DNA of 64,000 nt from Spirometra erinaceieuropaei (lineage: Eukaryota > Platyhelminthes > Cestoda > Diphyllobothriidea > Diphyllobothriidae): contig CACRXP010000010.1 in the NCBI GenBank assembly GCA_902702965.1, positions 2,169,934 to 2,233,933 on the forward strand, in the 5' to 3' direction. This document shows positions 1,892 to 53,890 of this stretch, in pieces. Position numbers and translations under genes: made by a program. Every line of letters begins with the position of its first letter. The first letter of the stretch is position 1. Under the pieces are notes generated by a model. That model saw nothing but the letters and a program-made list of their open reading frames with translations. It had not been told where the DNA came from and made no database searches.

Positions 1892-2035
1892 CTAATAGTA
1901 GGATTATTAGTAGTATTCGCCGTATCAGTGGTGGTAGACGGGGGAACAGTTTTCTTCAGTGTTGCGACACTGTATTCCTGCCAGTGGTAGTAATATTAGT
2001 AGTAACAGCGGTAGTAGTGGTAGTAGTAGCAGTAT

Positions 2036-2131
<96 letters not shown>

Positions 2132-2158
2132 TAGTAGTAGTAGTAGTAGTAGTAGTCC
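1863..2158. repeat. (GTA)n microsatellite block
   Basis: About 300 bp of imperfect GTA/AGT trinucleotide repeat, interrupted by GGT units. It is bracketed by a short repeat: TGTCGCAACACT near 1768 is the inverse of AGTGTTGCGACA near 1957 and of a one-mismatch copy near 2198. Reading frames through it encode only poly-Ser, poly-Val or poly-Leu and are not genes. Confidence 0.95.
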
Positions 2159-2289
2159 GCCCGTAAGACAGGCTGGTGGGGGAATAGACAATTCTAAGTG
2201 TTGCGACATTGTATTCCCGCCAAACTTTTAAATTCTATTAGGCGACAACTCAAAGGCTTCCACTTGCCTTTCGACCTTGGTAGAATTTT

Positions 2290-2495
2290 TGCGGCCAGTA
2301 CGTTATTACCGACAAAGACAATGGAGACTGGAATGGCCATTTCCGGCTTATTAGCCGTCGTCAGCCAGTCATACCCAACCCCGAAGTGTGGAACACCCGA
2401 GGCTCGAACTCGCAACCTGTAATTTAAAAGTCCACGCCTCCAACCACTGGGCCACGAGCTCGTTGCCTTGTCGGTTTCGATCGGGAATATACAAA
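2290..2495 (-). mobile_element. tRNA-derived SINE with intact hammerhead motif
   Basis: Read on the minus strand, this starts with a tRNA-like head: an A-box-like GTGGCCCAGTGGTTGGAGGC and a B-box-like GCGAGTTCGAGCCTC. A short GGGGTTGGGTAT linker and then a hammerhead fold at 2326-2370 follow. The body continues with TCCATTGTCTTTGTCGGTAA. The same layout recurs at 15.2, 40.4, 45.3, 45.6, 46.9, 47.2, 53.5 and 53.8 kb, which defines an interspersed family. Ends are approximate. Confidence 0.8.
2326..2370 (-). ncRNA. Hammerhead ribozyme motif (intact core), SINE copy 1
   Basis: On the minus strand, stem I is formed by GACTGG and CCAGTC (6 bp, perfect). The core reads CTGACGA, which fits CUGANGA. 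Stem II is CGGCT/AGCCG with an AATA loop. GAAA follows. Stem III is the very short AT..AT around GGCC. The predicted cleavage site is after ATT, just before CCAGTC. This is the layout of type I hammerheads with minimal stem III known from retroelements such as the schistosome Sm-alpha SINE. All required elements are visible; activity is inferred. Confidence 0.8.
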
Positions 2496-2539
2496 CTGCG
2501 CTAAGTACATCGCATAATCGTCGTTTGCGTCCACAATTC

Positions 2540-3290
2540 GTGTGGAGACGATACTGTAACTTCTACTTTGCTCATCCATCTTTGTTCCTTCAGGTTGCCT
2601 TGCCGTGATTAGCAATGGTTCCGTAACCCTTAGCCCTAACGCTTCATACGCATGTTATGTGATCCACCATACTGACAACACAGGTACTACCTAAAAGTTT
2701 TGATGCGTGTTTAATCGGTATTCCGCGGCTGCATAACACAGCTGTGAAGGAGTTCGACTCATCAGGGTGTCCCTCAGCATTCTTTGTGAGTTTTATTCCG
2801 GACGATTTACTCCAAGTTAGCGCATTGATTTCTGTGTAAGCTAAACAGCTGAAGTTGCTCTCCATGTCATGTCTACGCTGAAAGTTTTTCCAACGTCATC
2901 TAGGACGAGATTATTCATTAGGTCTCTGTGGTAATGAAGTGTCATAACAAAAAAACAAATCGCCGGATCCTCGGCAAACAAAAGATGACTTCAGACATTT
3001 AAAAGTCTCGAATTTTGACAACTTGTAAACATGTTAGTACTGGCAATGAAAAATTGAGCAGCTTGTTGAGCCATTCTTGATACCAACGTATTCGTACTGT
3101 TTGGCTTCTAATGCTTCATATGTAGGCTAAGCAGTAGCAAAGGGGAGCTAAAAAAGCTTCAGAACCTTATGTTGTAAACACTACCCGATGTCTCTCTATC
3201 AACTTAAACAGCCTATAACGCATAACGAGGAGAAAACTAGGTAGGGATAGTTGAAATGTCTCTGTCTTCCAGCTGGACACGAGAAAAGGA
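2540..3290. other. Intronic or intergenic stretch, nothing identified
   Basis: No coding exon, RNA gene or repeat family recognised. The sequence has many stops in all frames and no domain-like peptide. Confidence 0.4.
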
Positions 3291-4139: not shown

Positions 4140-4515
4140 CTTTTAAAGCGCTAACAGGACAGACTGGGCGCATGTTCGAATCGCGCATACACGAGCATAA
4201 GCTGGCTGTGCGACAAGGCGACGCATTATCACAAGTGGCCGCCCACACCTACGAAATGGCCCACGAGTTTAACTTCGAAGCCACAAAAATAGTCACCCAA
4301 GCCGGAAACAAAACAGGCCGAGAATGGATTGAAGCCTGGGCCTCGGATGAGAACTCAATCAATCGATCTATCGCTCTGGCGCCGGCGTACAGAGCCCCGC
4401 GTAGTCACCCCCAGTCTTGCGCCGTCGGTCGATGATTGGCCTACATGCCCTATAATTGTCGCTTGTTCTGTTGCTGCTGCTACTACCTCTCACGATGGAC
4501 TCCTGTACGGACCTA
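4140..4515 (+). mobile_element. Penelope-like element fragment, GIY-YIG 3' part
   Basis: The reading frame from about 4150 gives RMFESRIHEHKLAVRQGDAL, then SQVAAHTYEMAHEFNF, EATKIVTQAGNKTGREWIEA and ENSINRSIALAPAYRA. This is the distal part of the GIY-YIG endonuclease domain of flatworm PLEs (R..EH, then RE..EAW, then SINR..L..AYR). The YVGET start of the domain is lost or altered. The tail (4390-4510) is the unit that reappears as the arms of the fold-back at 5179-5654. It is a dead fragment lying inside a TRPM intron on the opposite strand. Confidence 0.75.
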
Positions 4516-5178
4516 GTTACTTTCAGTAGGAAGTGTCAACAGGACAACAGCCCTATTGCTATTCCAATTAGCGAATCTCTCGAGCATTGCAAAAAACACG
4601 ATGTGGATTAGTAAGGAACTAATATCTAGGCAACAGGTAGAACAGCGTAATGGATATTGTTCGTCTTAGCCATACGCGGATGAATTTTACGGAAGTCTGT
4701 CACTCTAATATCCCTGTGACGTTTTAAGCGTAATTATTAAAGCCAGTTGTAAGCACACGAGCCTTTCCTGCAGTCTACGTACATTTCACTGTGCAAAACA
4801 ACTATCCTGACTTCTTTTGATTCCATCTGAGCCTAATTTCTGAGTTTCTGGCGTCAGAACATTCCATCCTATATGCACTCTTCTAAGGCTCCAGAAATGT
4901 CGGACGAAAGTGGATAGTTGGAAGTCCCTTCATTGGCGGTTCTAAAGGGTAAAATAACGCAAGTCTATATGCTGCTCAAACTACGAGACATAGCTGAGGT
5001 CTGGTACAAATAAAGAAGAAGTCTAACATTGTAACCGTTTTGGCCTGATGAAGAGTTACTGAAAACACGTGTTCGCCAATTTGACTTTTCAATTGCAACA
5101 TGGGGAATATTCGCTGAACTTAGAAGTCTAACAGTTAAGAAAGTTTTGGTCGGAAAACATGACACTGAGAATGATGGC

Positions 5179-5654
5179 GAAATTTCGAGTTCCAGGTGTA
5201 TGCATACGTGAAGAAGAAGAGTCGAGCACCGGAACACTTTGTTTATTGTCCTGAACTTTCAGACGCGTGCAGGAGTCCATCGTGAGAGGTAGTAGCAGCA
5301 GCAACAGAACAAGCGACAATTATAGGGCATGTAGGCCAATCATCGACCGACGGCGCAAGACTGGGGGTGACTACGTAGGGCTCTGTACGTCGGCGCCAGA
5401 TCGATAAATCTACTGACCGAGTTCTCATCCGAGGCCCAGGCGCCGACGAACAGAGCCCTGCGTAGTCACCTCCAGTCGTGCGCCGTCGGTCGGTGATTGG
5501 CCTATATGCCCTATACCTGTCGCTTGTTCTGTTGCTGCTACTACCTCTCACGATGGACTCCTGCACGAGTCTGAAAGTTCAGGACAATAAACAAAGTGTT
5601 CCGGTGCTCGACTTTTCTTCTTCACTTATGCATACACCTGGAACTCGAAATTTC
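5179..5654. repeat. Fold-back element from PLE tail
   Basis: Two arms of about 217 bp (5179-5397 and 5439-5654) are inverted copies separated by 41 bp. Both carry the GGCGCCGACG end and the CTCACGATGGACTCCTG segment. A third, direct partial copy lies at 4390-4510 next to a PLE endonuclease fragment. This shows that the arms derive from the 3' part of a PLE. The arms differ by several substitutions and small indels. Confidence 0.85.
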
Positions 5655-5699
5655 ACCTTCATTCGTGAGCTGATGGTATTCGAATCACCAATAAATGCT

Positions 5700-7365
5700 C
5701 ACATCCCCTTACCAAACGAACTGAGCTTTCGTCCGGCTTCCTGCATATCAGGTCTCAGGTGCCTGAGAGAGGGTTTTTGACTAATCACATTATCCATAAA
5801 TCCCAGCAACTTCCCTAAGTCTATCAAGTTTCTGTGTGTGTAGAGCACAATGTTGTGCAGTAGTGTTCACGGATTCCTTCTAAATGCGGAACAGAAACGG
5901 GATTTTCCGTTTTACTTTGGGGTCCGTAGTATAGCCCAGTCCGGCAGTCGCACAATGATTAGCAGTCATTAATCAATAACCAATGGAGACTAAGGAAACG
6001 CAGCCTAACATGACTACTTTAGAATTATTTGCTTTCAGCGGTCAGTTGTGCGCTTGTTCCATGCTGAATATCGCTGGAACTTGAACACAGGTCATCTGAC
6101 CTAAAACCATTTGACTTCCGGAGTTTAAATTACGGTTTTTACACACAGTCCGTTGTACTTGATAATATTCAAAGACACAAAGCGGTGGCTTCAAACCTTT
6201 TCTTCCAGTTGCATAACCGTATGGTCCAGTGACGACGGCATATAAGCCATAAATGATTATTAACGTTTTCCAGCTCTTTGTCTGTAATGTCCGTTAGTTA
6301 GTACTGGACCTTTAAAGACTGTACTGACTACAAGCAAGAAAGGTGTGGCAAAAATTTCTAAGATTTTAAAATTTTAAGAAGGGATTTCACGGCTTATTGA
6401 CGAAAGTGAAAAGACTGTTTCACCCAAAATTTGCTTCGCAACTTCAGAATGTGTACGAAGTCGGTCTTAAGGGTGGACTACTAAGTAGATGCACGTGTGT
6501 ACATGGTTAATCAGCTGTACGGTTTGATTTCCGAATTTCTCACAAAATGATGACCTGAGATGCGATTTTCACGATGTTTATGTGGTTTGTTTGCCATATG
6601 CACCTGTGCATGGTGTTTTATGGAGCAGTGATGCTTATTTAAGGGTTGCCCAGTATAGACTTCAAAGTGACCGAAATACATAATATAAAAATGGATTGTA
6701 TGAAAAAAGACGTAAACTGAATCATCTTCTACCCTTTTGTCAGTCCGTTTGATAGCGGGTTAGGCAAAGATTGTATGTTAAAGGTCTGAATTAAAATTTT
6801 CTTCGTTATTTGTCCCCCTTGGTCATCTCAATTCACTCCCGCTGACGCATAAATAAAAACTTTCAGACGTTCCGTAGTGCGCCAAAATGAAGAGGGATCC
6901 ACGAAAGTAAAACAACGTTCCGCCGTTAATTTTGCTCATAAGATTAATAATTTTTGAAAAGTGCTGTTCCTCATATGTTGGAATTCCTCGCGTTTGACCG
7001 TCATACCATGGATACAATGATCCGTTCACTGAGGTTCCCACTGTATCGGTTTTACAGTGGAATTTACCATTTCTATATGAAGGGATTGTCAAAAGCATTA
7101 CGCCTACCAAACCCGTTCACTGATACTTTCGTTATCATGACCGTCCAGACGGGACTTGCAGTGGCTGGCTTATCTCATGAAACGTTTACCGAAAAGGTTA
7201 CTTCGGTGAGGCTGTAACATTTACGGTCATTCAACACACTTTCAAAATACTTCAGTTACATCACGATACAGTCATCGAATGGGCTTCTTTTCGACTGTCT
7301 GCAAAAACCCATACTCGATAAAAAGTGACTACTTAGTAGTACGGATTTTTCCCATCGATTTTCCA
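5700..7365. other. AT-rich intronic DNA, nothing identified
   Basis: This part of the 8.3 kb TRPM intron contains only short open frames without recognisable domains. Confidence 0.4.
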
Positions 7366-10159: not shown

Positions 10160-10580
10160 ATCACGTGTTGGATGCTGGTGTGACGATTTCTCGGCAAATT
10201 GGCTCACTGTTACTGGGATTATTGCTCGTCCACGCCCTCCCCACGTGACTGATGCCCCTGTCCAGGGAAAATCTCAGCACGGAATACGGTAACGGGAGGT
10301 CATTGCGCTTGTTGATGGATTGCGGGCCTGAGAACCATGACTCGAGCAGCACGCGGTTCACGCGGTTGTTACCCCCTGCGAGGATTTCGGCCTCTTGAAA
10401 CTTGAAACTATAGCCGGGTCCCGTCGAATGAGCCGCCACCTGGGAGGTAGCGTCTCCCCGCCTCACTGCTGCTGTGTGCTCGGCAATTCGTGTCCGGAAT
10501 AATCTCCCAGTTTCTTCGACGTAGTTGCTTTGTCTGCAACTGCACCAGATCCAGTAAACGTCAGACTAATAAATTTCTTG
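10160..10580 (-). mobile_element. Penelope-like element fragment, GIY-YIG domain
   Basis: On the minus strand the frame reads NYVEETGRLFRTRIAEHTAA, then VRRGDATSQVAAHS, FKFQEAEILAGG, VLLESWFSGPQSINKRNDLP and PYSVLR. These match the PLE GIY-YIG endonuclease: YVGET.R....R..EH, then RELLESW, then SIN. The key Gly of YVGET is Glu here. About 70 residues before the end are frame-interrupted. It is a decayed copy within a TRPM intron. Confidence 0.8.
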
Positions 10581-10700
10581 TTCCAGTGATCGCATCCTTG
10601 TCTTCTGAACTGCTTCCTGGAACTCGCCTGTTCGCTTCTATCCGCTATATAGATCTCTCAGTCACCGCGCCCAGTTCTCTCATCAGACAACTGATTGGCT
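10553..10700 (+). mobile_element. PLE terminal module, plus orientation
   Basis: It starts AAACGTCAGACTAATAAA and continues with TTCTTGTTCCAGTGATCGCA and TCTTCTGAACT. The same module occurs at 33996-34075 (+) and, inverted, at 10890-10985 and 13500-13590. It begins inside the hammerhead-like motif, so only the part after GAAA is present. Confidence 0.6.
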
Positions 10701-10971
10701 AGGAGAGCGGACTGGTTTTTGAAGAGAGAGAGAAGATAGAGTAAGATCGAATGTTTCATTACATGCTTCTCAATGTAACCAATCAGATGCACTTGAATCT
10801 ATCATGATGCGCTATGAGCTGTGACTTTGAGGGCTGCTAACTGATGGGATAACACGGTCCTCCTTCCAGAATGAAAAGTTACACTACAATAGCTCCTAAA
10901 CAGGCAAAAATGCGAGTCCCATGAACTAGTTATTAAGAAATAGAAGCGATCGCTGGAACAAGAGCTTTATT

Positions 10972-11015
10972 TGCTTGACGTTTCGGATTCTCCCTCGAAC
11001 CCATCATCTGAGACA
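10972..11015 (-). ncRNA. PLE hammerhead-like motif, degenerate copy
   Basis: On the minus strand the core is CAGATGA (expected CTGATGA). Stem II is GGGTTC/GAATCC (one G-T type mismatch) around GAGGGA, followed by GAAAC, GTC and AAGCA. The upstream TGTCT can pair partly with AAGCA as stem I. It is the same motif as 33972-34015, with core position 4 changed. Confidence 0.55.
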
Positions 11016-12010: not shown

Positions 12011-12254
12011 AATAGCTAGCATTCTGACATGACTGAAATATCTTGAGATTATGGTGCGCAACACTTATTCTTACTACCACATTCAAGTAACCTCTCCTAA
12101 TCGAATACACTGTTCAGAATTTCAGTGAGCATGTCATGAGTTAGCTCATTTACTGTGCATGACTTCCAAACGTCATTTTAGTGTGATCTCTAGGCAATTA
12201 ATCTGCCACAGGTCCTATACCTTATGTAACAACTTATCACGTGAGACAACCTAC

Positions 12255-12679
12255 CAGCTCATCCACGTAGACATCCGGAAAGGAGCAGCCTACCATCTCC
12301 TGCAACAGACGACCCACCGTCCTCAGGCAGATCCAGTCCTCACGAGGCTTTCGACGCAGTTTCTTGGCCACGGTTGAGAGGACGAAAAGTTTGGAACTGC
12401 TGTTTGGACCCATTGCCATCTCCGCCAAAGGGTCCACCGTCTTCTCCACCAGACCGGAGGCCACGAGGTTGCGTTTGCGCAGGCTTATGTCCTGCAGGGG
12501 CAGGTTGCAGGCCTTAAGGCAGGTCCTTAGTACGTCCGCCTCATTAGTATTGTTGTAGAGGTAACGCAGACGAATGCGATTGAGAAACCGGTTCACGTCC
12601 AGGCCCATTTCCAGCATGAGCTCCACAAAGTCTGCTTTGTTCTCTACCAGAGCCAGGTTCATCAGAAACTCCAGCTGGC
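12255..12679 (-). CDS. TRPM: TRPM-like channel, exon after the SLOG domain
   Basis: The exon codes for 142 residues counting the split first codon. It begins with QLEFLMNLALVENKADFVEL, then MLEMGLDVNRFLNRIRLRYL and YN. TRPM proteins have the same block after the SLOG domain (L..AL...R.EFV.LLL..G....FL...RL..LY). Downstream come a basic KKLRRKPRED and RLLQEMVGCSFPDVYVDEL. The acceptor is CTTGCCGTCTCCAG. Phase 1 joins the preceding exon exactly, completing a Gly codon. The donor is CTG|GTAGGT in phase 0. Confidence 0.9.
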
Positions 12680-13449
12680 CTGGAGACGGCAAGAAAAGAC
12701 GCGATAGTCCCGGTCAAGAAAAAGGGCGACAAATTAGTTCATAAAATTATCTATTTACTTATCCGAACTTTCAGTTGTGCAAAAAAGATCATCAGCCAGA
12801 TTCTGAACATCTTCCCTCTCTTAGTTTGTGGCCGGCCCAGTGGAAATTTCGGTTCGAACATTAGGATCAATATCAGCTGAGCACATCGGCGCCGGGATTC
12901 GGGGTGGCATTTATTTTGTCCCCTTGGCCAAGTGAATATCAAAGGTTTGAAAAAGTTCCAAATTTTATGTTATTTTAATAGAGAGCGAGAGAACCAATCC
13001 CCCAAAATCTATCCAAAAGTTTTGTGTGTTGGTTCTAAAGGCGCCACTTATATCAGCTGGTGTAGGTGTCGTGGCTATGGGGAAACGCTGGGGGACCCAC
13101 TAATGAGCCGAGCCGCTCGCAGCTCTGCCATACAGCGGCAGAATATCGACGAAACACGCGTGTTTGGGCTTTTGTTTACAACTTGTGCTATTAGTATGGT
13201 ATCACCTTGCCCCAAAAACCTTCAAAAACTGCCATGCATGTTGAGATGTCAAACTGAAGCTCCAGGTAAATACGGAAGTAAAATCTGAGCACTCGGCAAT
13301 TAAACGGGCACAAAGCATTTATAGCGAGTGCAGTTGGTTTTCATGGGGTTCTTAACTGACCTGAATGCGAAATTAAGGTTGTCAGAAGAACGTGCACAGT
13401 GATTCAATGGACACAGGCAATCAGTAAGACAAGTACATTTTATGAAAGG

Positions 13450-14140
13450 AATCAGGAAGTATGGTCGTTTAAAGTCGCTGGCAGATGCAAAGAGTCGAAT
13501 CCCAGGAAAACGTTCGGAGGAAGAAGATTTGATCGCCGGAACAAGAGACCCATTGGGCCGAAGTTTCACATTTTCACTTGAACTCATCGCCAGAGGTAGT
13601 CACAGAAGAGGGTACTGGAGGCAAAAGTAGCGTAATATTTATAGAACGCAGTTGTCAAGCCATCGCATGCCTAGAATAACTATCAGCACTTGATTTCGTC
13701 TCTGGGGGTCGCATTTGATGCAATGGTTATCTATTGGTCCACACAGGAGTCGTTAACTGGTGTGATTTCATCAACGTTATTGATTCTTGGCGTGGCGGTT
13801 ACCCGGCGATTTGTTCCACTGCCAATCTAACAGCTGGTTGCCCATCCCCCCCCTCCAACCCCGGGGGATGGGGTTGATTATTTTAAGCAGACAAAATCAC
13901 ATCACAGAAGATTTCGGCGGAAGATTATTGAGATTTCTGAATGGACTGCAGACCGGAGACACATGACTTAAGCAGTTTGCTACTCACGCGATCGTCATTG
14001 AGATGGTACTTGAATATGTCAGTGCCTGATCTCGTTCGATGACGATGAAAGTGTCATCCACATACCGAGTCCAGATTTTCGGTCTGTGGTGTCGGAAGTG
14101 TAACGACCTTCCTGTCCGGAGATTTTGTCTGAGCAAAATA
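13450..14140 (-). mobile_element. Penelope-like element remnant with RT motif and terminal module
   Basis: On the minus strand, RPKIWTRYVDDTFIVIERDQ (about 14023-14082) is the catalytic YVDD block of a PLE reverse transcriptase. The following sequence is frame-broken. At 13450-13605 lies the PLE terminal module: GGCGATGAGTTCAAGTGAAA is a degenerate version of the hammerhead-like motif, and CTCTTGTTCCGGCGATCAAA is the shared downstream part. The frame upstream of RPKIW is short and poorly conserved. Confidence 0.7.
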
Positions 14141-14249: not shown

Positions 14250-15150
14250 TAATCGCATCAAATGCAACCAAGCGATGAAGGCTTGTCCTACTAACTAGTG
14301 TAGCCACGTTGTGATCTGACAACTGCGCTTCACATGCTTCCGCTAGCCTTCTTTTCGACTATCTTTGATGATGCACTGGAATGAGAAGGCGAAACTTCCG
14401 CCCAAATTACCTCCTGTTCCGGTGGTCGCGTCTTCTTCTGAGTTACCCAAATCTCTCTTCGCAAGTAATAACTCGTCATTTCCGTGACGTGAATGGAGTT
14501 TGCGTATTTGAAACATCTCTGAAGCCACGGCTCTATGCCATGGAAAACTGGTAGGTCACAACATCTTTCTTGCTCTGGAAAACCTTCTTAGGGGTCAGCG
14601 CTGATCCAGGAAGATTTATGTAACGACATGATAAAAAAAATGTCCGGAGTTTACAGTCATTGAGTGAGGGCACGACAAATCTCATCTTCCCAACTGCCTG
14701 CATCGAGTAGAGTTTGCATTAACCATAAATAACATGCGACAAAGTATGCAACAGGATTCTACGTTCGAATTCAAATCAAATGTGGAAGGACTCTATCGGC
14801 AAGCAGGAAATACGCATGTGTTCATCAAAAAGTCAACTAGGACTTCATTTTAAAGTGCAAAAGGAGATCAGATGACGGGAACGCTCACCAATCGTTTTAC
14901 GGGCCACAGTCGTTCCGCTTTGTGTCTCACCAGCAACCACATAACCGCTGGTAGTATAGGCAGTACTGACCTGATCGCGCTGTCACCGTGCCTACTTCAA
15001 CTAGCTATGGAGCACACGGCGAACATCGTTGGGCACGATGGTGGAACGGCCGCCCGGTCGCAAGTGACAGAAGAAACAACTTGGGGCTCAGTACTTATGG
15101 CGACCAACGGGTCGTGGGAGCGAGTTTCAGGTGTTGCAAAACCAGGGGTT
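14250..15150. other. Intronic stretch, nothing identified
   Basis: No exon or repeat family recognised apart from the SINE remnant that begins at about 15150. Open frames on both strands lack domain features. Confidence 0.4.
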
Positions 15151-15235
15151 GCTCATAGCTAGCTGATGACGACTAACAAGCCGGAAATGGTTATTCCAGT
15201 CTCCCTGGTCTTTGTCAGTTATGTGGTGGTTACAT
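15150..15235 (+). mobile_element. SINE remnant with degenerate hammerhead
   Basis: The hammerhead region spans 15157-15201: CTGATGA and GAAA are intact, stem II has one A-C mismatch, CCAGTC is intact, but the 5' strand of stem I is AGCTAG and pairs poorly. TCCCTGGTCTTTGTCAG follows. The tRNA-like head is not recognisable. Confidence 0.65.
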
Positions 15236-33971: not shown

Positions 33972-34015
33972 TGTCTCTGATGATGGATTCGAGTGAGAAT
34001 CCGAAACGTCAGGCA
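33972..34015 (+). ncRNA. PLE hammerhead-like motif, best copy
   Basis: TGTCT and AGGCA pair as a 5-bp stem I (one G-T wobble). CTGATGA is intact at 33977-33983. After one extra T, stem II is GGATTC/GAATCC with a GAGTGA loop. GAAA is intact at 34003-34006. A minimal ACGT stem III leads to GTC, the expected cleavage triplet. The single T between CTGATGA and stem II is also present in the minus copy at 10972-11015, so it is a family trait. AATAAA follows 3 bases after stem I. Hammerheads in PLE terminal repeats are known from other eukaryotes. Confidence 0.65.
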
Positions 34016-34075
34016 AATAAACTTCTTGTCCCAGTGATCGCATCTTCATCTTCTGAATTTCTTGAAGTGTCATTT
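34016..34075 (+). mobile_element. PLE terminal module downstream of the hammerhead
   Basis: AAATAAACTTCTTGTCCCAG, TGATCGCATC and TCTTCTGAATT are shared with 10553-10700 (+) and, inverted, with 10890-10965. Confidence 0.6.
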
Positions 34076-40259: not shown

Positions 40260-40530
40260 GTTCGAGAGGTCCAGGACAAAATGGACGAATGAGTTCCTTA
40301 GCGCGATCGGTGAGCGGCCTCTACCATTTTATGTACCCGATCGCAACCGATGAGACAATGAGCCCGTGTCTCGGTGGTAAGAGGGTTTTGACATTTGACC
40401 AACAGTTCGTGGGATTGATCCCCAGGTGTTCCTCCCCTCGGGGTTCGATATGGCTGGTTGACAACATCTAATAAGCCAGAAATGGCCATTCCAGTCTCAC
40501 TTTTTTGTCGATAATGCTATCTTGTTTTAC
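40260..40530 (+). mobile_element. SINE copy with degenerate hammerhead
   Basis: The tRNA-like head has GTGTCTCGGTGGTAAGAGGG and CGTGGGATTGATCCCCAGGT. The hammerhead region at 40452-40496 has stem I GGCTGG/CCAGTC, but the core is TTGACAA and stem II is broken. The GAAATGGCCATTCCAGTC part is intact. Confidence 0.75.
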
Positions 40531-45269: not shown

Positions 45270-45490
45270 AATGATGGTTCAGGGAAGGAAACCGACAAAA
45301 ACACCGCGAGACTGGGATGGCCACTTCTCGTTTGAAAACCGCCCCCAGTCAGCCCTTTCCAGCCCCAGGTTTGCTTGACCTGAGATTTGAACCGGGATAT
45401 TTGGGTCACTGATTGTTGTCAATTCCAGCACCACATCATCGAGACGCAGACCCGCCGTCTTGTCGCTTGCGATCGGGAACAATCCCTATC
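45270..45490 (-). mobile_element. SINE copy, minus strand, hammerhead relic
   Basis: On the minus strand a tRNA-like head has the B-box-like CCCGGTTCAAATCTCAGG. The hammerhead relic at 45310-45350 keeps GACTGG and the CCAGTC partner plus GAGAAGTGGCCATCCCAGTC, but the CTGATGA core is lost. The TTTTTGTCGGTTTCCTTC body follows. Confidence 0.65.
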
Positions 45491-45559
45491 AACTAACGAC
45501 CCATAAATGCCTTACCCACGACAGTGACTATTCTCGATCCCAACCGGTAGGACAACAGA

Positions 45560-45690
45560 GCTGTGACTCAGCAACCATGAATGCACTCTCGAGGCCCAGG
45601 TGTGGAAAACCTGAAGTCGGGCCTGGCTGACTGACGACGGCCGATAAGTCGAAACGGCCATCCATCTCTGGCTTGAATTTGTCGTTAGTT
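45560..45690 (+). mobile_element. SINE remnant with degenerate hammerhead
   Basis: CTGACGA at 45631-45637, stem II CGGCC GATA AGTCG and GAAA are recognisable. Stems I and III are broken. The tRNA-like head is weak (GAGCTGTGACTCAGCAACCA). Confidence 0.55.
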
Positions 45691-46845: not shown

Positions 46846-46849
46846 CTCG

Positions 46850-47050
46850 CGTGTTCCACAATTCGGGGTTGGCTATGACTGGCTGATGACGGCTAATAAA
46901 CCACAAATGATCATTCCAGTCTCCCTTATCTTTGTCGGTAATGCCATTCTGCCTATATCATGCGCCGCTGTGCGGCTGCTGGTAGGACTCGAGAGAAAAC
47001 CCGTAAGGCAAAACCGAACGAGTGAGTTTCGTAAGAACGATCAGTGTGCG
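46850..47050 (+). mobile_element. SINE copy, 5' truncated, directly before a second copy
   Basis: It starts in the linker (CACAATTCGGGGTTGGCTAT). The hammerhead at 46877-46921 has a perfect stem I and CTGATGA, but stem II is mismatched and GAAA is CAAA. The body GCCATTCTGCCTATATCATG continues to the head of the next copy. The two share about 130 bp of nearly identical body. Confidence 0.8.
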
Positions 47051-47059
47051 CCCCCCACC

Positions 47060-47370
47060 ATTGTATATTCCCGATCGAAACCGACAGGGCAAAGGGCTCG
47101 TGGCTCAGTGGTTAGACGCGTGGACTTCTAACAGGTCATGAGTTCGAGCCTCGGGTGTCCCACACTTCGGGGTTGGGTACGACTGGCTGACGACGACTAG
47201 TAGGCTAGAAGTGGCCATTCCAGTCTCCCTTGTCTTTGTCGGCAACAGCATTCTGCCTATATCATGCGCCGCTGTGCGGCTGCTGGTTGGGCTCGAGAGA
47301 GAGAGAGCCCGTAAGGCACAACGGCACGAGTGAGTTCCGTAAGAACGATCGGTGAGCGCCCCCCCCCCCC
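47060..47370 (+). mobile_element. SINE copy, most complete
   Basis: The tRNA-like head is GGGCTCGTGGCTCAGTGGTT AGACGC (47094 on), then GGACTTCTAACAGG, which recalls the anticodon arm of tRNA-Arg(TCT), and the B box GAGTTCGAGCC. The hammerhead at 47181-47225 has perfect stem I and CTGACGA, but stem II is weak and GAAA is GAAG. The body runs through GCCTATATCATGCGCCGCTG to about 47370. The acceptor-stem pairing is poor, so this is a SINE head and not a working tRNA gene. Confidence 0.82.
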
Positions 47371-52640: not shown

Positions 52641-52648
52641 ACGCTCAC

Positions 52649-53019
52649 CGAGATCCGCCGAGATGTCTCGCCTGTCTCGAAGCGTCTAGGGAGGAAGTGA
52701 CAGTGGAGACGGCAGCTTTATCGGCTGAGGAGGATGATGTGTTGGTCGACAGTGGCTCTGAGGACGAGGGCGGTATGGGGATGAGAAGGGTGTCAGTCAC
52801 CAGCACGTCATTACTCCACATGCGATTGACCCGTTTCAGCAGGCTCACGCTCACGTCATGGCGCACGGCAATGGAGGAGAGCGTGTCCCCGGGTTGGACA
52901 GTGTAACGGATGCATTTGTGTGCACACGGTGTTACCGCTGCAGACGATGAGGACGCGTCCCTCAGCGTACCATAGTACTTGGGACGCGTTTCTCGCAGTA
53001 TGCAGGCATCCTCGGCCAT
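52649..53019 (-). CDS. LysM-domain protein (LYSMD-like), first coding exon
   Basis: ATG at 53019 starts MAEDACILRETRPKYYGTLR and a Ser-rich stretch follows. Residues about 38-81 form a LysM domain: IRYTVQPGDTLSSIAVRHDV then SVSLLKRVNRMWSNDVLVTD and TLLIPIP (YTVQPGDTL, I.R.N, L.IP signature). A Ser/Thr-rich linker leads to SRQARHLGGS and the donor CG|GTGAGC in phase 2. Animal LYSMD1/2-type proteins are intracellular, and no signal peptide is seen here. The frame is open further upstream through a (GCC)n Ala run, but this ATG is the best start. Later exons were not identified. Confidence 0.85.
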
Positions 53020-53060
53020 GACAACAGCAGCAGCGGCGGCGGCGGTGACAGTTTGGTTAG
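53020..53060 (-). repeat. GC-rich trinucleotide run before the LysM start codon
   Basis: A (GCC/GCT)n run directly upstream of the proposed ATG on the minus strand, likely 5' UTR. Confidence 0.6.
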
Positions 53061-53232
53061 GGTAGGGGATCCTAGTGCCCAATAAAGACGGGAATCAGCC
53101 GCTGTGCCGGATTTTTGTGGGTGTACCTGGGGAGATAAGAAGCAAATGCAGTAAACGTATCTGCTGAGAGGAAAGAGATGCGAAACAATTCGATCGACTT
53201 AGCGTCATCCGCCCCTGAATTTGCTTAACGGT

Positions 53233-53610: not shown

Positions 53611-53689
53611 GACCGCCATGCAATCGCCTTCGTGGGCTCTAGATTGAGTTCTGCAACCAGACCGATGAACGCAACTCCAGCGTAGCTAA

Positions 53690-53890
53690 TATTCCCAACC
53701 GCAACCGACAGGACAAAAAGCACGTGGCTCAACGGTAGAGAATTCGACTCAATGACCAAATATCCTGGGTTCAAATCTCGGGTGTCACAAACTTGGGGTT
53801 GAGTATGGCTCACTGACGACGATCAACAAGCCCGAAGCGACTATCTCAGTCTCCTTTGTCTTCTTCGGTACTCCTTCCGGAACTTATTTA
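53690..53890 (+). mobile_element. SINE copy with degenerate hammerhead
   Basis: The head has an A-box-like GTGGCTCAACGGTAGAGAAT and a B-box-like TGGGTTCAAATCTCGG. The hammerhead at 53807-53851 keeps CTGACGA and CAGTC, but stems are mismatched and GAAA is GAAG. TCCTTTGTCTTCTTCGGTA follows. Confidence 0.75.

Follow-up and report, generated by a model that had tools for sequence, protein, structure and literature searches.

The window analysed here, a stretch of 64,000 nucleotides of the Spirometra erinaceieuropaei genome (contig CACRXP010000010.1 of assembly GCA_902702965.1, positions 2,169,934 to 2,233,933 of the forward strand), contains a tRNA-headed SINE copy with a hammerhead-like motif, further copies of the same family, and fragments of Penelope-like elements (PLEs). 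The SINE-related features are the following:

2296..2494 (-): SINE copy, part A of a 308-bp unit (covering unit 308-198; window position = 2494-u for unit position u)
2388..2462 (-): tRNA-Arg(tct)-like head, from the sequence and from ARAGORN at a relaxed threshold on the family consensus
2454..2444 (-): A-box-like TGGCCCAGTGG, within the tRNA-like head
2411..2401 (-): B-box-like GAGTTCGAGCC, within the tRNA-like head
2326..2370 (-): hammerhead-like motif, from sequence, alignment and folding; predicted cut between 2332 (H17, a T) and 2331
2296..2325 (-): post-hammerhead tail ending at the A-site, a recurrent 3′ insertion end (unit ~187-205)
6223..6291 (+): SINE fragment including the hammerhead-like part
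15053..15223 (+): old copy, with G at 11.1 in its hammerhead-like part
40285..40520 (+): older copy with an A-end
45291..45481 (-): old copy
45526..45689 (+): old copy
46846..47363 (+): multimeric insertion (1.68 units) whose end is close to the B-site
53689..53871 (+): older copy carrying another tRNA-like head

Long GTA/GTG trinucleotide repeats adjoin the SINE copy at ~1860-2158. Pieces of host genes were also observed, namely a TRPM2-like domain at 12237-12713 (-) and a LysM-domain protein at 52645-53094 (-), the ORF of the latter being 94% identical in Spirometra sp. Aus1, 86% in Sparganum proliferum and 65% in Schistocephalus.

Analysis of the minus strand from 2370 to 2326 (GACTGG-CTGACGA-CGGCT-AATA-AGCCG-GAAA-TGGCCAT-T-CCAGTC) revealed a stem I of 6 bp, a CTGANGA core, a stem II of 5 bp, GAAA, a stem III of 2 bp around GGCC, and ATT before the predicted cut. 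The type I hammerhead traits are all present: the CUGANGA...GAA core, the three stems (I-III) with stem I open, and NUH at the cut. The parts listed in the original prediction were recovered letter for letter. That prediction placed the motif directly after a head with pol III boxes; the A- and B-box-like head does exist at 2462..2388, but a spacer of ~17 nt separates it from the motif in this copy. The base of stem II (10.1-11.1) is C-G here, a minority state within the family. The covariance check suggested for the site turned out negative, with no match to any Rfam family in the window at the gathering score and none in 2000..2800 at E<=10. In nearest-neighbour folding, whose energies give no credit to the non-canonical hammerhead core, the 55-nt stretch preferred another structure (best fold -18.2 vs -10.9 kcal/mol for the hammerhead fold), a deficit of 7.3 kcal/mol in the window copy and 5.3 in the consensus, and folding of 87 nt around the motif gave a z of -0.21.

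We then considered the motif at the level of the whole genome (758.7 Mb in 1932 contigs, one genome). The exact 35-nt motif with A at 11.1 occurs at 5621 places and reversed-pattern controls at none, a count that covers the A-at-11.1 form only, the window copy being of the G-at-11.1 form. The anticipated genome-wide excess of intact motifs was thus observed, and the window motif is more than chance, because it lies within a repeat family with 5621 exact genome copies and no reversed-pattern control. The 199-bp repeat at the site gave 3439 first-look genome candidates, 40 of which were scored and yielded 47 matches. In 20 preset 10-kb stretches (L021-L040, ~177 kb without N), seven matches were found at E<1e-20; scaled from these stretches, the copy number is very roughly 30,000. 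The consulted portion of a previous survey lists 35,223 SINE elements for this species, with Penelope elements making up 10.4% of bases (PMC8166898).

On the consensus, ARAGORN with a relaxed threshold assigned the family head to tRNA-Arg(tct), while at the default threshold it reported no tRNA in the window; the Rfam tRNA model scored 33.3 bits on one old copy in a search at E<=5. Some older copies with other tRNA-like heads retain the hammerhead-like part together with the 20 nt after it. With its A/B-box head and dispersed copies bearing target-site duplications (TSDs; clear for composites, weaker for single-orientation copies), the element has the traits of a tRNA-derived SINE, and the data support the proposal of a separate, very abundant tRNA-headed repeat family with a hammerhead-like module. 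It had also been proposed that the family was perhaps undescribed, and the open-licence literature searched gave no description of this family or of any tapeworm hammerhead; likewise, the consulted portions of the Spirometra genome papers (PMC12249497, PMC8166898) do not describe it.

Comparison of adjoining copies defined a circularly repeating unit of 308 bp, made up of part A (198 bp: head, hammerhead and tail) and part B (110 bp). Copies are often multimeric and insertions reach ~1.75 units; the one at 46846..47363 is flanked on both sides by the 13-nt ATTCATATCAACT, the right one lying 11 nt past the drawn border. The consensus unit contains no TTTT, and only this and the promoter-like sequence point to putative transcription by pol III. 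Folded as a circle, the consensus reached -127.6 kcal/mol against a mean of -100.8 for 100 dinucleotide-shuffled versions, none of which was as low (z -5.1), with the A- and B-sites both in unpaired AC-rich stretches. The real window unit at 46945-47252 folded no better than shuffles (z -0.05).

To follow the hammerhead-like module through the family, 61 of 65 aligned rows were compared (four were too short), 22 of them old (<82% identical) and 39 young. In old copies the fixed core letters were retained in 155/180 cells, vs 619/951 in the tRNA head and 80/123 in the 5′ strand of stem I. Free letters vary in the same copies, the consensus being present at N7 in 10/20 and at H17 in 9/20 of them, and G at H17 was found in none of 59 copies. 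Such retention of the core alongside drift of the free letters would be expected had a hammerhead been selected for in the source genes, although a change at N7 is also a CpG transition. A complete fixed core with H17 other than G was present in 24/39 young and 5/22 old copies.

The base of stem II departs from this picture. A standard pair at 10.1-11.1 is important for hammerheads, and it was found in 4/39 young and 4/18 old copies, C/A occupying these positions in 34/39 young copies and in 13/18 old copies having both letters. Old copies keep the mismatch letters themselves (C in 18/20, A in 15/19). CpG decay is an unlikely source of the A at 11.1, as it should also have produced the mirror form CTGG, which the alignment rows shown do not contain. 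No covariation signal was detected in the hammerhead stems among aligned copies, as is expected if copies decay independently. Rfam hammerhead models found no copy at threshold among the SINE copies searched, the RF00163 gathering score not being reached; at E<=5 the search also picked up foldbacks through microRNA models and gave a single weak match to PhotoRC-I. In this genome the Penelope motif reads CTGATGA-T-GGATTC...GAATCC-GAAACGTC, and by eye an additional pyrimidine separates GA from stem II. Because this additional pyrimidine also occurs in the SINE, its hammerhead may be a Penelope-type variant. Putative self-cleavage of the SINE RNA is plausible, the chances for and against being about balanced.

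A second repeat family carries canonical type I hammerheads, two of which were above threshold among 73 scored of 111,175 genome candidates:

L061:862-935 (-): canonical hammerhead with long loop II, Rfam RF00163, 42.3 bits
L062:552-623 (-): canonical hammerhead with long loop II, Rfam RF00163, 34.5 bits
window 2678-2785 (-) and 13084-13173 (+), L040:4843-4966 and L038:7264-7393: relatives of this family by similarity

Both L061 and L062 also contain inverted neighbouring pieces, and a decayed copy lies ~180 bp from the SINE hammerhead site of the window. The same RF00163 model detects this canonical family yet misses the SINE hammerhead, which counts against the latter. Two other repeats were noted: nested inverted and direct repeats at window 4334-5664, by eye with a second Penelope-like 5′ region (CTCACGATGGACTCC...GAGTCTGAAA), and a repeat marked by GGTTGACATTTCATGAGTTA, neither SINE nor PLE, at six exact places in L022, L025, L027, L035 and L038.

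Insertion ends were determined in 70 pieces of at least 80 nt and at least 85% identity located off the locus edge. The 3′ ends fell at the A-site (unit 187-205) or the B-site (unit 296-10) in 63 of these 70 pieces, 32 at A and 31 at B. This held for 32/36 ends in the first set (window and L002-L040) and for 31/34 in L041-L060, which were taken after the two-site rule had been formulated. In the preset stretches L021-L040, which were not chosen by similarity, 6/8 listed ends were at A or B. Just 4/70 3′ ends lay at unit 206-295, inside B; ends inside A, but not those inside B, were under-sampled, because L002-L020 and L041-L060 had been selected for matching part A best; chance estimates for the end counts presuppose that ends are spread evenly. 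The A-site (...GGTAATAACATACTG(CC)/TATA) and the B-site (...GCGCCCCCTACCATTG/TATA) are 110 nt apart, ~36 nt and ~146 nt beyond the predicted cut, respectively. Regarding 5′ ends, none of the 70 pieces started at 163-168, adjoining the predicted cut, and 5′ ends at the cut were consequently rejected as proof of cleavage. The excess of 5′ ends at 163-200 (8/36 and 10/34) is weak, and this cluster and the one at 292-6 are biased, since most loci were picked by full match to part A.

Neighbouring pieces formed 25 head-to-head, 4 tail-to-tail and 4 direct junctions, a count that skips neighbours more than 30 bp apart and thereby L042 (by eye B/B across a 43-bp gap). In the 24 head-to-head junctions off the locus edge, the outer ends were A/B in 16, A/A in one, B/B in none, A/other in five, B/other in one and other/other in one. 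Both outer ends were therefore at recurrent sites in 17/24 junctions, and 16 of these 17 pair one A with one B; in the sole A/A junction (L011), another piece past its small left one ends at B. The eight of 24 junctions without the A/B pattern are counter-evidence to an A/B rule.

The presence of TSDs was determined in 21 of the 25 head-to-head junctions (omitting L003, L019 and L039, at an edge, and L058) and in 21 single-orientation copies, hand-picked rather than comprising every copy. TSDs of at least 8 nt were found around 12/21 composites and 2/21 single-orientation insertions, vs 0.58% for flank pairs drawn at random; with TSDs of at least 7 nt, the single-orientation copies numbered 4/21. 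The other 9/21 composites had no 8-nt TSD, with just 4-5 nt in L004, L012, L046 and L055, and some of the matches counted lie up to 11 nt off the drawn border, that of L011 being an AT repeat. Terminal repeats measured separately were 4 nt in L019 and 4 nt in L003. TSDs enclose composites, and many composites are therefore single events. Furthermore, among the first 100 listed of the 5621 motifs (contigs C1-C4) there were 16 close pairs, 10 of them head-to-head, 2 tail-to-tail and 4 direct at 308-314 bp. Chance proximity of dispersed motifs was discarded as a source, given that by our own arithmetic less than one pair per 100 copies is expected within 600 bp. Nor are the head-to-head pairs likely to be assembly artefacts: their halves are unlike in sequence and in end, and TSDs enclose many of them.

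PLE fragments, partly inverted in their arrangement, lie at window 10161-11014, 13477-13595, 14362-14439 and 33973-34053. The features identified within them are:

10161..10565 (-): PLE fragment, GIY-YIG endonuclease end of the ORF, with 16 homologues
10556..10645 (+): PLE piece reaching end-2
10904..11014 (-): PLE 5′ region
14362..14439 (+): PLE 5′ region with end-1 terminus
33973..34053 (+): PLE 5′ region that has a hammerhead-like motif of its own; short terminus (end-1)

The ORF at 10161..10565 (-) gave no Pfam match, and its identity as a PLE is based on its homologues, those named being from Spirometra, Sparganum, Dibothriocephalus and Schistocephalus; one of them (P0009) passes the PF01541 GIY-YIG cut-off. 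By eye, the PLE reading frame starts inside the hammerhead-like motif. The 3′ ends of 27 PLE pieces fell at query positions 77-96 (14 pieces), 111-121 (9) or elsewhere (4), corresponding to ~+67 to +86 and ~+101 to +111 relative to the ATG for the two clusters; some of the 111-121 ends may run further, because the query stops at 121. In Anolis PAc, start sites are at 111-118, with a 30-40-nt 'tail' (PMC11167929). Three pure PLE composites were observed, all head-to-head and each with a shorter and a longer end (L021, 87/117; L025, 96/116; L030, 121/81), with terminal repeats of 8, 5 and 13 nt, respectively. The exact PLE motif occurs 5531 times; within the first 100 listed, neighbours less than 3 kb apart were head-to-head in 9 cases, direct in 3 (two of them at ~2.7 kb) and tail-to-tail in none. 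At L029:4319-4812 an inverted PLE is followed by a PLE and then, within 6 nt, by a SINE B-A, with a 5-nt border repeat. This apparent PLE-SINE chimera is possibly the product of a template jump, but the junction could instead reflect insertion beside an existing PLE copy, the terminal repeat being just 5 nt.

The SINE and the PLEs of this genome look alike in design, with two ends and head-to-head composites. In the Anolis PLE, both DNA strands are cut and extended, there are two internal start sites, and a hammerhead and an AC-rich stem loop are present, the hammerhead upstream (PMC11167929). The SINE shows the traits of this route, namely two recurrent internal ends, extension of both strands and TSDs, and its putative products (two cDNAs from recurrent internal sites, pointing away from the target ends) would fit PAc behaviour (PMC11167929). 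A clear PLE or LINE with the SINE tail was not found in ~325 kb of this genome, and the PLE partner is for this reason inferred from insertion structure and not from sequence. We consider it probable that the element is a non-autonomous, tRNA-headed, hammerhead-bearing retroelement mobilised by a PLE enzyme. With somewhat less assurance, we favour a strand rule by which priming would take place at RNA site A on one DNA strand and at site B on the other ('double-ended target-primed reverse transcription'), a dimeric Penelope complex copying in both directions simultaneously from a single structured RNA that may be circular.

According to this model, RNA polymerase III would transcribe runs of SINE units, and a dimeric PLE protein would bind the hammerhead/tail module and cut both DNA strands, the dimer occupying the A-site and the B-site of a single RNA. 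Reverse transcription would be primed at the A-site on one strand and at the B-site on the other, on the same or on sister RNAs, and the two cDNAs would be joined head to head, or one of them lost. The hammerhead may trim multimers or aid RNA folding, perhaps only with protein bound.

Two other readings were each judged to be a minority possibility, worth retaining in second place. One is a classical metazoan retrozyme, in which a fully active hammerhead would cut 308-nt units, tRNA ligase would circularise them and the circles would serve as template for the reverse transcriptase. The ~308-bp tandem units, the highly structured consensus unit lacking internal TTTT, and the type I architecture with short stem III all fit this reading, the unit size being within the 170-400 nt given in the portion of PMC7229834 consulted. 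The C/A at the stem II base in most copies, the missing Rfam match and the absence of ends at the cut argue against it. The halves of L021 have 15 of 18-20 deviations in common, as if one template had been read twice, the only clear positive in our check for variants shared through a circular template, and close pairs agree at the free N7 letter (2/16 discordant, shuffle P 0.015). On the contrary, most multimers and pairs (e.g., window 46846, L012 and L013) contain clearly different units, for which a linear heterogeneous transcript or later decay fits better. Altogether, the shared deviations of L021 fit one common template, and most other pairs are without such a signal.

The other reading, held at the same strength, is that the hammerhead-like fold does not cut and is conserved only for recognition by the PLE protein. 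In the Anolis PLE, insertion proceeds normally with hammerhead mutants, and without protein the ribozyme is inactive (PMC11167929); both results would agree with this possibility, as would the preservation of the 10.1/11.1 mismatch itself in old copies. Retention of the core letters while the catalytically free ones drift speaks against it.

Mobilisation of an ordinary tRNA SINE by an RTE or CR1 LINE through conventional twin priming, with the hammerhead as a decayed passenger, appears unlikely. Twin priming is known for L1 and predicts variable internal ends for the inverted half, unlike the 17/24 junctions in which both outer ends were recurrent. No matching LINE tail was found in the ~325 kb, and a LINE-type RT motif with 176 occurrences showed no close pairs in the first 100 listed, a sparse control in coding sequence, discarded as too sparse to count for head-to-head pairs. 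In favour of a LINE helper, RTE-BovB and CR1 amount to 11.2% and 9.4% of the S. erinaceieuropaei genome in the portion of PMC8166898 consulted. Finally, a chance motif in an unrelated repeat, consistent with the lack of Rfam match and covariation, is hardly credible for ordered and complete parts kept across subfamilies with different tRNA heads and in 5621 exact copies.

The PLE-mobilised SINE resembles the schistosome Sm-alpha/Sj-alpha elements in its tRNA-derived head followed by a type I hammerhead, its high copy number and its flatworm host. Its hammerhead sequence presumably differs from that of Sm-alpha, and most copies differ further in the C/A at 10.1/11.1 and in not being recognised by Rfam. 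As expected from the original prediction, the plan is shared; compared through the consulted parts of published descriptions (PMC2770079, PMC8490949), the head is tRNA-Arg(tct)-like here and tRNA-Gln-TTG in Sm-alpha, ~38,500 hammerhead motif candidates being given for S. mansoni (PMC2770079). Two-site head-to-head insertions are a feature of the Spirometra SINE, Sm-alpha having been compared by plan alone. The metazoan non-LTR retrozymes of Cervera and de la Pena (2020), as presented in the portion of PMC7229834 consulted, share with it small tandem non-coding hammerhead units, TSDs and a stable fold, but have neither its tRNA/pol III-like head nor its non-canonical hammerhead. Retrozymes are recognised by tandem 150-450-bp units with a type I hammerhead, and the SINE has tandem units of 308 bp. 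With PLEs (Poseidon PAc of Anolis, PMC11167929) it shares a hammerhead placed a short way upstream of two recurrent ends, copies that are wholly or partly in tandem, and the use of both DNA strands; it differs from them in that it codes for no protein, its A- and B-sites are 110 nt apart vs ~35 nt for the PLE ends here, and no PLE match to its tail was found in the ~325 kb.

Our best reading is thus a Penelope-mobilised, retrozyme-like SINE with an Sm-alpha-like plan and a new insertion rule, the pairing of unlike sites being the new point of the insertion pattern. The 308-bp unit, the recurrent ends, the head-to-head insertions and the connection to Penelope all go beyond the original prediction. 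The consulted part of PMC7229834 left open which enzyme helps hammerhead elements of animals to move and regarded PLEs as strong candidates, and the paired insertion ends provide structural evidence for such a helper. In vitro, a PLE starts reverse transcription inside its RNA on both strands, with no apparent start-site difference between strands and with later steps still to be validated (PMC11167929). Being numerous, near-identical and clean-ended, the SINE copies are a record of completed insertions and point to the PLE route; their ends suggest a strand rule unseen in vitro (PMC11167929), for whose study the element offers a substrate of ~300 nt. If this is true, PLEs would join LINEs as helpers of SINEs, and the Spirometra SINE would link two kinds of selfish RNA whose connection was previously just suspected.
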